A stretch of 64,000 nt of DNA from Halichondria panicea. Taxonomy: Eukaryota; Porifera; Demospongiae; Suberitida; Halichondriidae. The first letter of the stretch is position 1. Every line of letters starts with the position of its first letter. The stretch lies in NCBI RefSeq assembly GCF_963675165.1, contig NC_087377.1:14814198-14878197 (forward strand). Direction: 5' to 3'. This document shows positions 51,098 through 59,900 of the stretch, piece after piece. A program made the translations under genes and the position numbers. The notes below the pieces were generated by a model. It saw nothing but the letters and a program-made list of their open reading frames with translations. It was not told the origin of the DNA and did no database searches.

Positions 51098-52250
51098 AGT
51101 AAATGACATTCTGAACTTGAAACAATTTATTGTTTAGCATCGAGTGTAGTTTAGTTCTCGGTTTACTGTATTTGAGCTGTATTGTATTAATCAAAGTGAA
51201 TAGAGTATCAAGTCGCCCTAAAAAAACTCTGAAACAGATCCTCAGCTCTGCTCATACCCAGTAGAGCATTCAACATGACACACACTACATACATACAATA
51301 ATTTGCAATGAGCAAAAAAGGTATATGACCCTGGCATCGGTCTGGAATACGTTATTTTTCAGGGGGAGGGGGGTCAAATTTTATTTTCGCCAATTTTGCT
51401 TAGAAGCAGAGATATACAATCAAAAGTCTTGCTCTTGTACTAGCCTCGATATCATGAGCGGTTTGTTCTCGAGGTCACCGCACAGCTGGCTTTGATAACT
51501 TGTATCTCTGCTTCTGAGCAAAATTGGTAAAAATTAAATTTGACCCCCTGAAAAATAACGTTTTAAACTTACAGACACTAAAAACTAACAATATTCATAC
51601 TCTGTCTCAAGTACCAGTGGAACAAAACTGCTACATGTACTGATACCCAAACCAGAGCGCAGTGTTGGTTGGACTCCGCCCAACTAACAAATGTCACAAA
51701 TGATAATATGGGCAACAGATATATAAACTCAAAATAAATCAATTGTCTTGGGTGAGATCAGGAGCACATTACAGAAGGAGCGTCAAACTGTGCATGGGTT
51801 CGGAAATCGCATCTCGTGTCCTTTCCTAAACGCCGCATTGCGTAAGTACTATGTACATAAATTACAGACCAGCGGTCAGCCTGTGAATATCATTATGAAC
51901 GGATTTTGTATGTAGTTGCAGCAGCAGGAGAGCTAGGTTGAGCCAGAACGAGCTAAAATGAATAGCTAGGTCATCTTTGATGGATGTTGGTATACATCAT
52001 GGAAGAGACTGCATGCATGCATGTCATTTGTGAGGTACAGAAAGTTCTGAAATAGGAGCATATCCAGTCACTTTGTACATAGAAAGTTTGCTAGACTAGA
52101 CATAGACTAACACATACTGTAATGTGCTCCTGGTGAGAACCATATCCAGAGAGGGGCTTTTTGCTGCTTTCGACCCAACCCCCTATTAGCACTACTGTGC
52201 TAATGATTGAATACCATGATGCAATCATCACTCTGCTCTGTGCTCCGCAC
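51098..52250. other. Intergenic region left of the P-like transposon
   Basis: 3' flank of paralogue A, the MITE at 51350-51560, and what was originally the upstream region of paralogue B, ending with CTCTGCTCTG (52231-52240) and the TSD TCCGCAC (52244-52250). No coding exon seen. Confidence 0.6.
51350..51560. mobile_element. MITE with CGTTATTTTTCAGGGGG ends
   Basis: CGTTATTTTTCAGGGGG...GCCAATTTTGCTTAGAAGCAGAGATA has its inverted partner ending CCCCCTGAAAAATAACG. The middle matches the truncated copy at 32646-32815. Confidence 0.8.
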
Positions 52251-52343
52251 CATAGATAAACGAGATAGAGGGATTGGAAACGACAAAACTCCTCGAATAC
52301 TATCCGCGTTTCGCTGCGGTTTAATCGAGGCTTACGTTTGATT

Positions 52344-53399
52344 ATGGCTGAGGCTCAGGCTAGGACAAAGACACCTTCAAACAAACCATCTATGAAGAAG
52401 CCATCGAACAAGAAAATAGAAGACGAGTTGGAAATTGTGTTGAATGCTATTGGATGTGTGTTAAAGACGGAAGAAGAAATTGATGTTAAAGTAGAAAGTA
52501 AAAGATCTATACAACAAGTTGTGGAATTGTCACAGTCAGCTGAAAAGAAGGCCATACTTCAAACATTTTGTCTGGAACTAGTAGCTGTGATAAACAAAAC
52601 ACTGAAGCACTTTGGGAGAGTCAGAGAACACACAGCAAAAGAGCGAGCTCAAACATTATTCTTCACGTCATCACAGCAGGAACTACCTGGTGTATGGAAA
52701 CATGGTTGTGCCCAGCTAGGAATATCAGTTGTCAGTGTACATCAACAGCAGTCAGTAAATCGAGTTTTGTTCGAAAAAGTTTTGGCTAGGAGTCTAAGTC
52801 ACTGTGAAGATAATTCAAGTAAGCTTACCCGTAAACGAGAAGATCTTTCATGTGACGAATGTAATGCTGTTAGATATGCAGCCGGCTATACAACAAAAAA
52901 GCTATTAGAAGTGTATAAAAAAGTTAATTCATGTACTGCTGCTAACTTTGTTGAATGTCTCTCTCAAATGAAAATGGTGGGTCATCGACATGGAAGTATT
53001 GAAGACTGCTCTTTTTACGACTTTTCAATGGAATGGATGGCAAACATTGACAGAGGTGGACTGTTCTACGTAGATGACAAAAGTTTTATGCTGTTTAAAG
53101 CTATTGAAATAAAAACACAAGAATTGCTCCCACAGCACTTACGAACACAACAAACGAGCAGTAAGGAGTTGATTGCTGAAGTAGTAGCCGATGATGATGT
53201 ACAATTTTGGTGGTCTATGATATCCATTGACATTGATTTAGAGATTGAACAATCACAATTGCTGGAGGAGATAATTGAAAAGTGGATAACTATGAGAGGT
53301 TTTTCAATGGTGTCTTCTTGGCTTGAGCAGTACAAGCTAGCCAAGCAAAAGAATGTCAAAAGATCAAAAAGTCTCAGAAAAGATCTCAGTACTGACTAG
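52344..53399 (+). CDS. Accessory protein of the P-like element (351 aa, unknown function)
   Basis: Intronless frame from ATG 52344 to TAG 53397-53399. The earlier TTG at 52338 is unlikely as a start. A basic Lys/Pro-rich N-terminus (TKTPSNKPSMKKPSNKK) precedes a helical region and a motif block CDECNAVRYAAGYTTKKLLE with a nearby DRGGLFYVDDKSF segment. The AGY(T/V)xxKL and RGGL pairing resembles the C-terminal region of many animal transposase-derived proteins, though I cannot name a Pfam family. The C-terminus is basic (KQKNVKRSKSLRKD) and may be nuclear-targeting. It starts about 30 bp inside the left subterminal repeat, which probably carries its promoter. It could be a transposition cofactor, a regulator, or a split-off domain of the transposase. 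Confidence 0.85.
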   Translation: MAEAQARTKTPSNKPSMKKPSNKKIEDELEIVLNAIGCVLKTEEEIDVKVESKRSIQQVVELSQSAEKKAILQTFCLELVAVINKTLKHFGRVREHTAKERAQTLFFTSSQQELPGVWKHGCAQLGISVVSVHQQQSVNRVLFEKVLARSLSHCEDNSSKLTRKREDLSCDECNAVRYAAGYTTKKLLEVYKKVNSCTAANFVECLSQMKMVGHRHGSIEDCSFYDFSMEWMANIDRGGLFYVDDKSFMLFKAIEIKTQELLPQHLRTQQTSSKELIAEVVADDDVQFWWSMISIDIDLEIEQSQLLEEIIEKWITMRGFSMVSSWLEQYKLAKQKNVKRSKSLRKDLSTD

Positions 53400-53570
53400 C
53401 TGTAGCTGTGTACATGTATTAATACTTTGGTGCAATATTATGTTTCTCTCGTTTTAGGGATATTACTTATCTAATTACAAGTATGTATTGAAGTTACGAT
53501 AGTAATTAATACAGTCATGGAATTATAGAGTTAAAAACAACATGAAACACAATAATACATACAACACACC

Positions 53571-56333
53571 CTACTTATGTCTAGGTCTCTTCTTAAGGGG
53601 AGTGTCATCAACTACTTCCTCTTCATTAAATAGCCTTCTCTTTTTAGACGAATTTCCCCTTACTGGTAGCATGGAAAGACTGCCTTGAACTCGAATTGAT
53701 TGGGAAGATTGCAAGCAAGATTGTAGAGTAGGGTTAGTACAAAATCCTCCTCTACTACGCAACTGTCCAAAATAGTTTTCTAATGGATCTTGAGAGAAAC
53801 ATTCGCTGAGTAAGTATCGACCAGACACACATGGTAGACTAAACAAGTATCGAATGACAGCCACAAATGATTTCACTGCAAAAATAGATATGCACATACC
53901 TATACATGTATGTATATGCTATATGTAATTACCAGTAATCCTTAATCCTTCCCTAGTTGCCCTGCTCAGAAGCATTGTTGGTTTTTCTGCCTTCGGTACA
54001 TCAGTTCTTGTTTCCACACTATCCTCCCATTCTTTGAGGTATCCTAGGAAATCTTTTTCCAACCACTGCAATAGAAGTGTGTGTACAGTGTGTTATAAAT
54101 GGTATGTTGCCATTTTAATCTTACATTTAGGCGTGCATCGTCAGCATCTTCATATGGCTTCAAGTTGTGTTTTCTCCGTTTTAAGTATACTTTTGGGTGA
54201 CGTACATTAAGACAGTCGAACAACTTATCCATCATGCGCACGAATCTTTGCGTTTCAAATGTGTCCACAGACCCTTGCATACACAATCCTTCAGCGACTG
54301 ATTCACTTAATACCTGTGCATAACGATGTATTAATTTAATAACAAGGCATTTCCTTACCTCGGCTGCAAGGCTCACTTTCATTCTTGAATACGAATTTAG
54401 ATCAACATGTTCTTTCGAAAGTTTTTTAAGAAGAAATAGTCCCTCTGACCTCTTTCCCATTGATACTTTGCCATTGTAGAGGGAGCGCAAATGATCCCAG
54501 CTAATATGTTTGCCATTGATCTGTGAACAGATTCATAATTTGAAAGAGCAAACAACCACATGATTTATACTCACCCACAGTTTTCTTGTCCATCCATGCC
54601 CAAAGGAATGTGACCAACAATTACGCGTTGTTTTAATAAGGTGAGGGATGTCTGAAAAGAAGTGAATGTATCGTTCTTCAGTAGTATATGGATTTTTAAC
54701 TCGGTGACAAACATCATCCTTACTAACAGAGTGTATATTAAATAGCTTTCGATTTGTTGAAGCGCCATCTCCGGTTACTGCTATTACTTTAAAACCAAGT
54801 CTCTCTAATCGTTCTATTGCCTCCCAGACCATGAAAAATAGCGATGATCCTGTTACTTCAGCTGTAGCAAAATGAGCATACGGAAAATGCAATCCAGTAA
54901 AAACACCTCTTACCATAAGGCAAAGCAAATGTGTTGCAACGCTATTATCGGAAATGTTGCTCTCGCTTAGTTGATTTTCTACATCACTCAAATGAACGAA
55001 ACCAATCACATTATGATGATGCTTATCATAGACCAAACTCTCTCGCAACTTCATTTCATCTATTAAAATTACAATGAACTTTTTCCACTCCAATAGTCCA
55101 TGTTTACTAGCTTCTTCCAGCAACATTTTATCAACTTCGGATTGGAAACCACACTTAACTTTGAATACATGAGAATAATCTCTAAGTGTTCTTTCTGATG
55201 GTAGTCTTATAAAGCCAGAAGAACGCAAGGAATGATAAGCAGCTGAGGAGAGATACTTTAGATTTAAACACCACCTTATCATTGTGGGATGCCACCTCAT
55301 TTGTGCAGCGTTCATCACTGTTGCTGCTTTCAGTTGTTGATCCCAGAAGAGCCTTTTAAAAGAACCTTCAGGATAAGCTTTCAAAATTGAATCACTTCTT
55401 TGTACCATTATACCACGTAGCTCTTGATGTAGAGGCTCATCTACACTAACTCCTTTTGAATCAGATGATTCCTGTATTTTAGTTTTTAACCGTTTCACTT
55501 CAATCTCCATAAATTTACAACGACTTCGTAGACTTTTTAGCTTCTCTGTTCTTTGAGGAGTCTTTAAATACCGATCGTTAGTATGCATGCTTGCATCCTG
55601 ATTTGCACTTGAATATCGGCTATGCAACGAACGTAAAGTACATCTGTACTTAGAGCAATTAATACATTTTTCACCATTCACTAACAGTTCGCAATTAATT
55701 GTTCGTACAGTTTTTGAGTACGTTTGCTTGCCATTTGCAACAGGGAATCCACTGTCTAACTGAGCTTTTATTTCTCCATTAGGACTCAATAATTTTCCTT
55801 TGCGTGACACAATCATACCCACAAAATGCGGATCAGGGTTACCAGTACACACAGTACTTGATTGAATTACATCCAAAAGCTGTCTGAAACTCGAAAAACT
55901 TATTAGCGTAAATGGAATTGATGACAGTACTTTGGTATTTCCTGCGTCAACTTTGTGACCGTGAACAAACAATTCCCAAGATAAATCAACATTTACTAAC
56001 AATGTATGTGTTATAACCAGAGGTTGACTTGAAGTAGAAGCTTCAGATGATATCTTACAGAGTTTGATTGCTGTTATTGGCCTTTCAGGTGATGTTTGAT
56101 TACTCCATGTCATATCAAGGGTAGGCACTACGCGATCATGAAAATCTTCCAGAGTATTAACCTCAACATTTTGTTCTTTATTAGATGTCGATGGAACAGC
56201 GGATATGCTTTCCTGTAGCAAGTTATTGACATTATCATTGTGTTTTTATACTTATATACTTGCAACATACTTTCTTTTTCTGTTTTTCACTTTCCCAATT
56301 TTTGGCTTGGTAGAATCTCAACTTTCGCGGCAT
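53571..56333 (-). CDS. P-element-like transposase, THAP-less, 829 aa, apparently intact
   Basis: Exons in coding order: 56333-56271, 56212-54575, 54520-54359, 54313-54125, 54065-53933, 53875-53571 (TAG); 2490 nt with matching phases. The N-terminus (MPRKLRFYQAKNW...) lacks the C2CH zinc pattern of a THAP domain. A Cys cluster CELLVNGEKCINCSKYRC and a coiled region follow. The RNase H-like core shows MRWHPTMIRWCLNL, IVILIDEMKL (first acidic residue), AVTGDGAS (second) and FFSDIPHLIKTTRNCW. The C-terminal exon has SQDPLENYFGQLRSRGG, which carries the family's conserved Glu. Basic clusters at the end (KKRR, LKKRPRHK) suggest nuclear import. The intron at 54358-54314 is only 45 bp and is open in frame. 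It would cut and paste the element. Confidence 0.92.
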
Positions 56334-56921
56334 TTTACTTCTCTGATTTTCTAAGAAACGGATTATAACAAAACACAGTCATTCTCATTCAACAAATCCA
56401 CAGCTTTTAAATTGCCCAATATCATAGTAATAACTATTGGAGCACTTTAATAATAGGTACGGAAACATTACACACTTTTTATACAAAAAGTAACTGACAC
56501 AGGCAAGTACATTTCTTACTATAATTGGCTAACACAATATTCTTGTTCATTCAAGTGTAAATTAGTGCCAGATATATTTTCAGCCCATTTTACAAACTAC
56601 TTTATAAGTTATAGGAACAGAAACATGAAATTTACTGAAAAAACTGCTGTTACTCACCTATACTTGCAAAAATTTTACAGCTGCACTATACCAACTTTAT
56701 GACAGTGTATGCCACGTGGGTGAACACATTTTACCACTGTAAACGTCACTGATGAGACTTCCTAGCTTTGGTTAAACGATTTTTCACATAGCACAAAGCT
56801 ATTTCGAGGGCGAAACGCGGTTGTTATTTGGGGGTGTTACGTCACATAAGCAAATTGTGTAGCATCACGTGATCCGTTTCCAATCCCTCTATCTCGTTTA
56901 TCTATGTCCGCACGCACAGGG

Positions 56922-56928
56922 TATAAAA
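56922..56928 (+). promoter_or_regulatory. TATA box of second monooxygenase gene, 8 bp from the transposon target duplication
   Basis: TATAAAA lies 42 bp upstream of the ATG at 56970. The P-like element's target duplication ends at 56913, so the insertion removed everything upstream of the TATA box by 4.66 kb. Confidence 0.65.
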
Positions 56929-56969
56929 GAAGTTCACACACAATGTAATCATCACTCACAGCAGAAGAC

Positions 56970-59900
56970 ATGAATACTCTGATACTGTGTGTGTGCCTCC
57001 TCCCTGCTGCCCTAGCAGCTGTAGATCTCTCTTCCTACCCTCTCTCTCAAGAGCTAAGAGATGGGTACACATTGCACTGGAGCTTTAATGTTGAGGAGCA
57101 GAGCATAAGGTTTGCAGTGAATGTGAGCACCACTGGATGGGTTGGACTGGGACTGTCTCCCACTGGAGGAATGCCTAACTCTGACATTGTCATTGGATGG
57201 GTCAACAATGAAGGACAAGCCTTTTTGAATGTGAGCAATAATGAATCTGCAATTGCATTGTCATTCGGCATTTAATTAACGATTCAGGATCGCTTTGCTA
57301 CTGCACAAAGCCTTCCAACAGTAGATGTCAGTCAAGACTGGATCCTAGAGGCAGGAGAGCAAGTGGATGGATTCACTGTTCTTGCCTTTAGAAGAGATTG
57401 GGTCACTTGCGATACGGCACAGGACAGAGATATTAGGGTCAGCCTCCTATTGCCCATTAATTATTGTCATTGATCTTGAAATCAACAGGTGGATACAGTT
57501 CGTGTGATTTTCAGTTGGAACGATGCTGACCCTGTTGGAGATGATCCAAATCAAGTAATGTACCATGGTAACCAAAACCGAGGGACGTTCAGTCTTAACC
57601 TCCTGGGTGGTCAACAAGACCCACCCCCTGACCCTGCCGACCTGCAAACATTAAGTATCACTGTGTCTAATGTAAGTGCTCCTCGTTTACTCATTATAGT
57701 CTATAAAGATATGTGACCTGAAAATATTATGTCTGCATGTATGCATGAATGTCTGAGTGAGGTGTTTGATGCATGGCCATTAATTACACTAACGTTTATT
57801 CATCCATTCATAGCATAAACAAAGTAAGGTTGTTCTATGTGTGTGTATGCTTAACCACCACCTATATATATACGCACCAACTTGTGGTTTGAGAGTGACG
57901 TATATAGTATGACATTATTATATACATGTTGTCAGCTTTAACGCAGATTCAACAACAATATAGCTTAGATTAGGCAACAAAGAGACACTGACAAAAAAAA
58001 CAATTAAGAGTAGCACATGGACAATACAGGAAACAGTCTCTAGAACATTCTATACACAAAAAATAGAACTACTATAAATAGCTATTACATAAACGTCCTG
58101 TTCAGTCAACCACCTGATTAACTATCTACTTCAACAGCACCAACTTGTGGTTTGAGAGTGACGTATATAGTATGACATTATTATATACATGTACCGTAAC
58201 ATGGTTTATACTACAACTGCCATAGTTGCAAACATTCGTTACTAGTTAATCTACTTGATATTAGTTCTCACCATGTATAGACTTTACAACACTCGATTAG
58301 GTTAGATTCACTTTCTCATTTATAATTTCATTGGGATTCTACCTCACGTGATAAGTGATAGGGTTACATAAGAGATAAACATAAAATGACGTAATCATAA
58401 GGTGATAAAGTTCCAACAATAGGTGCATGGATATATATACTCCTCTTTTATGAACTCCTGATGCCGCCACGGATGACACCATAATAAATTTATCTGGTAT
58501 AATAGCCATTTGAGTAATTATACACACAAGAGAAATGTCAGTATAAAGCAACTAAACTATACATGTATTATTTCGGCATGCTAAGTCAGCTGGCATTATT
58601 GACCTCTGCAATCTTACACTCAGCACATTTTTCAGTGCAATCAGTGCTTGGCTGGCTTTATCAGCCACATGTTTTGAAATTAGATCACATTCATGAACAT
58701 CTGCTATAAAAACAAACCAAACCCTTCCGATAATTATTCTTAGTGCTGATCACATGATCTCCAGCCAATCAGCTTTCTGAAAGTAGTCAGGTGACCATGG
58801 ATTAAATAACTTAATCCACACTTAAGTGTGCTTTAAGTTGGTTTGTTAAATGCACACTATTCAAACAATCATAATACAAGCAGATTGAATCTGAATGTCA
58901 TCATAATTATAATAATAATACAAGCAGATTGAATATGTACACAAGCAAAGCTGAAAAGTATTAGAAAGTTGAATGTTATTGTTTCGACTTGTTTCATGTG
59001 TAGTAAGTGTACCAAATTGCTAACTTGACCATATATAGCATCGCTTTTTCGTCTGGAGAAATAGGCTCAGCTTGCTTCGAAGATGTACGTACCTGTACCT
59101 AAGCCAGATCCATATAATTGTTTCATCAAAGGTGCTTCGAATATCATAGCTTTCCAAAAGAGCAAACCAGATACTCATTGCCATATAGTTTGCGCACAAA
59201 GTTTCCCATCCAGTAAGCCAGATCAGCTGGAGGCATATCCAGTAGTGGGATCGGGACTATTGGTCAGCAGGAGAAATAAGTCGAGAACATGCCCAGTCAG
59301 TCCAGATAGCTTTAGCTCCTTCTCCTTTGCATCAGTTACTGGATCTACAAACCTACTAAAACTTGCTATTATACGTCTAGCTAGCCATGGCACCAGCAAC
59401 TGATTTAGAATGTAGCTAGATCTAGCTGCCACGAGGCTAGAGCTCACGTGACAGCACTAAATTGTTTAGAATACACCTAGCCAAGTCATGTGTTTTAATG
59501 CTGGTGCACTCGGATGGCCTCTCGGTTACGTAATGCACTCGGCTGCGCCTCGAGCACCACGTTAACCTCGAGGCCATCCTCGGCATGCAGATTAAAACAC
59601 TTAATCTTGGCTAGGTGTGTTCTAAATAATACATAGATGCATGCTAATGAATAGTAGAATCTCAATATAGAGCCGGACCAGACATTTCCGGATTATAACG
59701 GATGTCATTAATTGCTTATTAACGAAGAAACTTGTGTTAACTTTCTCCAATCAGTCTCCCTTAAGACTCCCAAGTTTTCAGTACTTGCAAGACAAGACAG
59801 GAAATACATACCACAAGTATTTTTGCATAGTTTCACAAGGATGACATCACAAAAACATTGTTTCATTATAAGGAGTGCATAATGATGACACCCAACAACT

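Follow-up and report, generated by a model that had tools for sequence, protein, structure and literature searches.

A P-superfamily transposon with a convergent second gene in the sponge Halichondria panicea

P elements serve as a main model for cut-and-paste transposition, and the transposase they encode is regarded as a single, self-sufficient protein. A locus in the genome of the sponge Halichondria panicea raises the question of whether one protein always does the work. The window, a stretch of 64,000 nucleotides of contig NC_087377.1 (positions 14,814,198 to 14,878,197), contains a 4,656-bp element at 52251–56906 in which two genes lie between terminal inverted repeats. A sequence-only reading had described it as a P-superfamily element that looks intact and carries a dedicated second gene, here called open reading frame 2 (ORF2). 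The genome comparisons support that description, and they show that the two-gene layout is a property of a diverse lineage and not of one element.

The ends of the element are those of a P-type transposon. The 32-bp terminal inverted repeat on the ORF2 side (52251–52282, plus strand) is complementary at 32 of 32 positions to the one on the transposase side (56875–56906, minus strand). This perfect match is peculiar to the window copy, 30 of 32 being the rule, because the window copy departs from all five other full-length copies at positions 56891 and 56896. An 11-bp subterminal inverted repeat, CCGCGTTTCGC, lies 54 bp inside the ORF2-side end (52304–52314, plus strand) and 87 bp inside the transposase-side end (56810–56820, minus strand). 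The element is flanked by a perfect 7-bp target-site duplication, TCCGCAC, with the same letters at 52244–52250 and 56907–56913. Sequence comparison thus bears out what the sequence-only reading had said of the termini, the subterminal repeat and the duplication, and also of the two genes, an 829-residue, six-exon P-like transposase and a 351-residue frame on the opposite strand, both undamaged in the window copy. Its account of their arrangement was right only in part: the two genes converge, with their tails facing each other, but they are not divergently promoted, as each starts towards its own terminus and no divergent promoter is shared.

The transposase gene occupies the minus strand, and its model consists of six exons separated by GT..AG introns, with a predicted product of 829 amino acids. 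Exon 1 (56271–56333) provides the start codon and 21 codons. Exon 2 (54575–56212) encodes a helix-turn-helix (HTH) match below threshold, the RNase H N-terminal domain with Asp406 and Asp503, and the start of the GTP-binding insertion domain, which continues in exon 3 (54359–54520) and ends in exon 4 (54125–54313). Exon 5 (53933–54065) is followed by exon 6 (53571–53875), which holds the C-terminal part of the RNase H fold, the catalytic Glu761, 68 further residues and the stop codon. In the spliced protein, the Pfam models TNP-like_RNaseH_N, GBD and RNaseH_C match above cut-off in that order, while the P-element HTH model matches below it. The protein aligns to the Drosophila P transposase structure 6p5a (E 2.1e-16) until just past E531, and alignment with Drosophila D230, D303 and E531 identifies D406, D503 and E761 as the catalytic residues. 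The domain order, the aspartate–aspartate–glutamate (DDE) residues, the terminal and subterminal repeats and the 7-bp duplication place the element in the P superfamily.

The family has moved recently. When the host genome (131 Mb in 39 contigs) was searched with the element DNA, 40 of 394 candidates being scored, at least 57 matches were obtained. Among the matches listed, six are full-length copies, including the one in the window, from which the other five differ by 2, 4, 4, 6 and 5 letters. All six are flanked by a perfect 7-bp duplication that is their own. The transposase is intact in four of the six; copies L003 and L006 have one stop each in exon 2, and the other exons show no stop-causing change and indeed no change at all in the full copies. 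ORF2 is intact in five, and in the sixth, L005, a 4-bp insertion follows codon 5 and the frame is open from Met17. This answers one way in which the sequence-only reading could have failed, namely that most full copies would lack the plus-strand frame: they keep it. The partial copies comprise one at C9, split by about 4 kb with both reading frames unbroken, a deleted copy at C4 and a 157-bp piece at C17. A further 28 of the 57 listed matches cover only the first 82–89 bases at 80–84% identity, a pattern that suggests short, putatively non-autonomous relatives.

The gene pair extends far beyond this family. Searches of the host genome with ORF2, the main transposase exon and the Pfam RNase H C-terminal model gave 67 matches (24–100% identity), 90 matches and 40 matches, respectively. 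When all 67 ORF2 matches, grouped into 54 places, were compared with all 130 transposase matches, 36 places had a transposase match within the distance limit of 3.5 kb: 35 convergent, none divergent and one co-linear. The counts are the same with 93 transposase matches instead of 130. The 35 convergent places are not 35 independent events, because seven belong to the window family and some others are near-duplicates.

Element boundaries could be drawn for part of this set. A scan of 34 merged loci for facing CATAGAT-type ends with a 7-bp duplication of at most two mismatches recognised nine; at the other 25 no end pair was recognised or the locus extends past the examined DNA. The nine are two window-family copies, two deleted relatives and five diverged two-gene elements with perfect 7-bp duplications, located at C16 (4,622 bp), C1:5242071 (4,643 bp), C7 (4,595 bp), C15 (4,998 bp) and C9:2096000 (5,124 bp). 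Those at C1:5242071 and C7 form one family, and stops interrupt the transposase in several of the five. The deleted relatives, L034 (73–2772) and L031 (73–2582), measure 2.5–2.7 kb, keep ORF2 sequence and have mostly lost the transposase; the duplication of L034 is perfect and that of L031 has two mismatches. The possibility raised with the sequence-only reading, that ORF2 is a separately inserted host gene with boundaries of its own, is contradicted by distant families: each has its own terminal repeats, and within them ORF2 keeps the same position and orientation.

Trees of 16 ORF2 loci and 19 transposase loci, built from query-anchored stitched matches and unrooted, contain the same main groups, and no well-supported conflict was seen between them. 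Both group the window with C4 and C9:1542964/C5, C1:9773733 with C12, C15 with C1:4973954 and C11, and C16 with C9 and C1:5242071/C7. Deep support in the ORF2 tree is low. With near-duplicates included, the distances of the two genes correlate at 0.74 (p 1e-4, 13 loci).

The second common feature of the lineage is a transposase with a short end. Judged on the genomic frame, 68 residues lie between Glu761 and the stop codon. Among 23 loci with the catalytic glutamate motif, 65–77 residues precede the stop in 15, 7–50 in eight and more in none. Of the class of 15, four loci belong to the window family and three to the C15 family; all 15 proteins end in a basic tail. In Drosophila P, about 220 residues follow the catalytic glutamate in a protein of 751. 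Because 68 residues follow it here and never more than 77 among the 23 loci, the transposase of the lineage appears to be without a P-type C-terminal domain. A THAP domain was likewise not found in the spliced transposase (Pfam, E up to 1). The host genome contains 14 THAP matches elsewhere. Within C12:3016928-3017835, a THAP match precedes a match to the RNase H C-terminal model by about 650 bp, both on one strand, and the two perhaps mark a P element of the THAP type in this genome.

ORF2 (52344–53399, plus strand) is a single exon of 351 codons with the motifs AGY...RGGLF...RGFS...SLRK. With the start codon 93 bp from the terminus, its transcription would be expected to begin within the terminal region or the flanking DNA. 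Its length exceeds what chance yields: in 500 first-order-Markov copies of the element interior, each read in six frames, the longest stop-free frame was 189 amino acids. The ten-member ORF2 alignment (A1) has the invariant residues Y178, G181, L206, W231, R237, G238, F251, E255, W290, L307, R318, G319, F320 and E328. Divergence was estimated for six pairs by the Nei–Gojobori method. Three diverged pairs have nonsynonymous distances (dN) of 0.28–0.60 with a synonymous distance (dS) that is not estimable, as in L026/L027, where dN is 0.34 and dS too large for an estimate; L027/L028 has a dN/dS ratio of 0.26. ORF2 itself has no Pfam match above cut-off and no match in the PDB. Neither ORF2 nor transposase relatives were confirmed in viral contigs and GTDB genomes, prokaryotic and viral sets with little bearing on animals. 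In the subfamily of L036, the start of ORF2 looks as if it overlaps a dispersed repeat: L036 1420–1623 (ORF2 residues 12–79) has nine matches elsewhere at 58–67% identity, and another nine, each 21 residues long, reach 90% (E 0.06).

What might the second protein do? The element would be a recently mobile, autonomous-looking cut-and-paste transposon of a lineage that relies on two proteins. The minus-strand gene would supply a DDE transposase of P type that contains a GTP-binding insertion, stops soon after its last catalytic residue and binds and cuts DNA as in P; the ORF2 product would join the transposase–DNA complex in trans as a helper. We give this two-protein explanation, in which ORF2 is most likely a transposition subunit, a probability of about 0.6; its mechanism is deduced from the anatomy of the element, and it presumes that both genes are expressed and that transposition needs ORF2. 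A narrower proposal is that ORF2 does the DNA-contacting work assigned to the C-terminal domain in Drosophila P, so that the transposase would be split, with the domain encoded separately on the opposite strand, and the two-protein system would have been kept through deep divergence. This is tentative, somewhat short of an even chance. In Drosophila P the domain is all-helical, touches both the transposon and the target DNA, and is attached by a linker that is flexible and disordered (PMC7776569); a split ahead of it is mechanically plausible because it hangs on such a linker. The sequence-only reading had suggested, from the AGY/RGGL motifs, that ORF2 may descend from a transposase C-terminal domain. 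THAP9-like proteins have C-terminal motifs of the AG(Y/F)V...GGL type. Descent of ORF2 from such a domain is not established. The apparent lack of the domain in the transposase lends the detached-domain idea indirect support, but the sequence comparisons, which are weak tests, do not link the two.

Several results weigh against the two-protein explanation or its narrower form. The P-element families of Pfam, Tnp_P_element_C included, match none of ten ORF2 family members at E up to 1, and the ORF2 family profile finds no match in the PDB, which is a weak test of C-terminal homology because the P chain there (6p5a_A, 569 residues, Drosophila numbering) may not include the domain. The Tnp_P_element_C model has no match in the host genome either, where the controls also gave none. 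By these comparisons, a link from ORF2 to the C-terminal domain is not apparent. The last transposase exon may also splice further, to a domain encoded opposite ORF2. The pairing is incomplete: within 3.5 kb, 18 of the 54 ORF2 places have no transposase match, and of the 58 transposase places 22 lack a nearby ORF2 match. Four of those 18 (C1:6027230, C1:8799653, C10:3114290 and C15:4453390) have convergent transposase remnants, and at two more the convergent transposase is farther off, 4.1 kb at C9:697651 and 6.4 kb at C1:12635127. Removal of near-duplicates lowers the distance correlation of the two genes to 0.13 (p 0.18, 11 loci) or 0.05 (p 0.46, 9 loci); it is 0.50 (p 0.0035, 10 loci) when the decayed C12 locus is omitted as well. 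Finally, the near-identical ORF2 pairs L035/L036 and L036/L037 have a dS of 0 and a small dN, every change being nonsynonymous.

Other roles for ORF2 deserve comparison with that of a subunit acting in trans. The protein may have arisen independently and serve as an accessory adaptor for DNA binding or nuclear targeting, with a role like that of the second PIF/Harbinger protein. The missing THAP match implies that another protein may recognise the ends, and the ORF2 profile has no link to the transposase exon-2 profile, as a separate origin would have it; yet the transposase has a basic tail and a sub-threshold HTH match of its own, and Pfam recognises no DNA-binding domain in ORF2. An adaptor is thus possible but rather doubtful. 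We consider it unlikely that ORF2 regulates or represses transposition and is dispensable for catalysis, after the manner of the short Drosophila P proteins. Drosophila P does make repressor proteins out of the same element (PMC7776569), and the two deleted relatives of 2.5–2.7 kb retain ORF2 sequence with most of the transposase gone. In both of these, L031 and L034, ORF2 is nevertheless broken, and a self-limiting gene would hardly persist at the same place in such diverged families.

Two further explanations concern the origin of the layout. ORF2 might be a host gene that a single element captured or that was inserted into it; a lineage-specific host gene might, like ORF2, show no Pfam match above cut-off and no PDB match. 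Its presence at the same place inside the own termini of diverged families refutes this as a recent event and leaves it highly improbable. The ancestral layout might instead have been co-linear or fused, the convergent split being derived and limited to H. panicea. Such a history would draw on L069, where an ORF2-like part lies downstream of a decayed transposase on the same strand. In-frame stops separate its two parts, and its transposase groups with the convergent loci C3, C15, C1:4973954 and C11 at support 100 in the unrooted tree, for which reason the co-linear arrangement is read as derived. As a decayed locus that groups with convergent ones, L069 is unlikely to preserve the ancestral state, and a co-linear ancestor is improbable overall.

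The element can be compared with several known systems. It shares with Drosophila P the split RNase H fold, the GTP-binding insertion and the catalytic residues aligned to D230/D303/E531. Drosophila P has 31-bp terminal repeats and 11-bp internal repeats unequally spaced at the two ends (PMC7776569), and here the repeats are 32 bp and 11 bp, again with unequal spacing. Drosophila P has one gene, with THAP and C-terminal domains, and an 8-bp duplication (PMC7776569), whereas the sponge element has a second convergent gene (in six of six full copies, one of them frameshifted, and in five diverged elements), no THAP domain found, a short transposase end and a 7-bp duplication. Galileo, a P-superfamily element of Drosophila, also has 7-bp duplications, with the consensus GTANTAC, but its terminal repeats are hundreds of base pairs or longer, and the accessible text mentions no second gene (PMC4168063, PMC2775673). 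Zebrafish Pdre2 and THAP9 resemble the element in their P-superfamily transposase, termini starting with CATA and subterminal repeats; they differ in an 8-bp duplication and in uniting THAP and C-terminal domains in one protein, again with no second gene mentioned in the text available (PMC10983969). PIF/Harbinger transposons have two reading frames, one of which is the transposase (PMC5543537); here, by contrast, the transposase is of P type by Pfam and ORF2 lacks a Pfam match above cut-off. No two-gene P element was recognised in the open literature by titles and the beginnings of abstracts, with Repbase and subscription papers outside this scope, and an earlier record is possible.

A Galileo-like tendency also appears in the target sites. 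Twelve insertions (six of the window family, five diverged elements and the deleted relative with a perfect duplication) agree with the pattern GTnnnAC in 36 of 48 letters, a value reached by none of 20,000 draws of flanking DNA, although the pattern was chosen after the sites had been seen. The window and C16 elements share a subterminal word 54–55 bp from the ORF2-side end and 87–101 bp from the transposase-side end. Both ends of an element carry the same word, but each of the two elements has its own (GCGTTTCGC versus GCGTTACG), as though the ends co-vary. A similar pair occurs at C1:5242071 and a weaker one at C9:2096000; at C7 the word is confined to the ORF2 side, and C15 has none. The motif CACGTG, at 56866–56871 in the window, starts 36–42 bp from the transposase-side end in the window, C1:5242071, C7 and C9:2096000 elements; C15 has it 34 bp from the ORF2-side end and C16 lacks it.

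Beside the element, in the stretch 56907–57275, a TATAAAA motif (56922) lies 15 bp downstream and the start codon of a host frame 63 bp downstream. The frame encodes a DOMON domain (Pfam E 9.6e-16), and the element has perhaps inserted in its promoter. Elsewhere, two ORF2 relatives with equal scores, L023 (C14:2153407) and L024 (C14:2179508), are separated by about 26 kb, and neither has a transposase match within 3.5 kb; perhaps a segment was duplicated here, or a gene has become independent of its transposon.

If the two-protein explanation is true, a long-lived two-gene lineage would suggest that the DNA-contacting part of P can be supplied in trans. It would offer separable subunits for mechanistic work, and P would join the superfamilies that have a dedicated second protein. 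The near-identical copies in the sponge genome make a test of activity reasonable.

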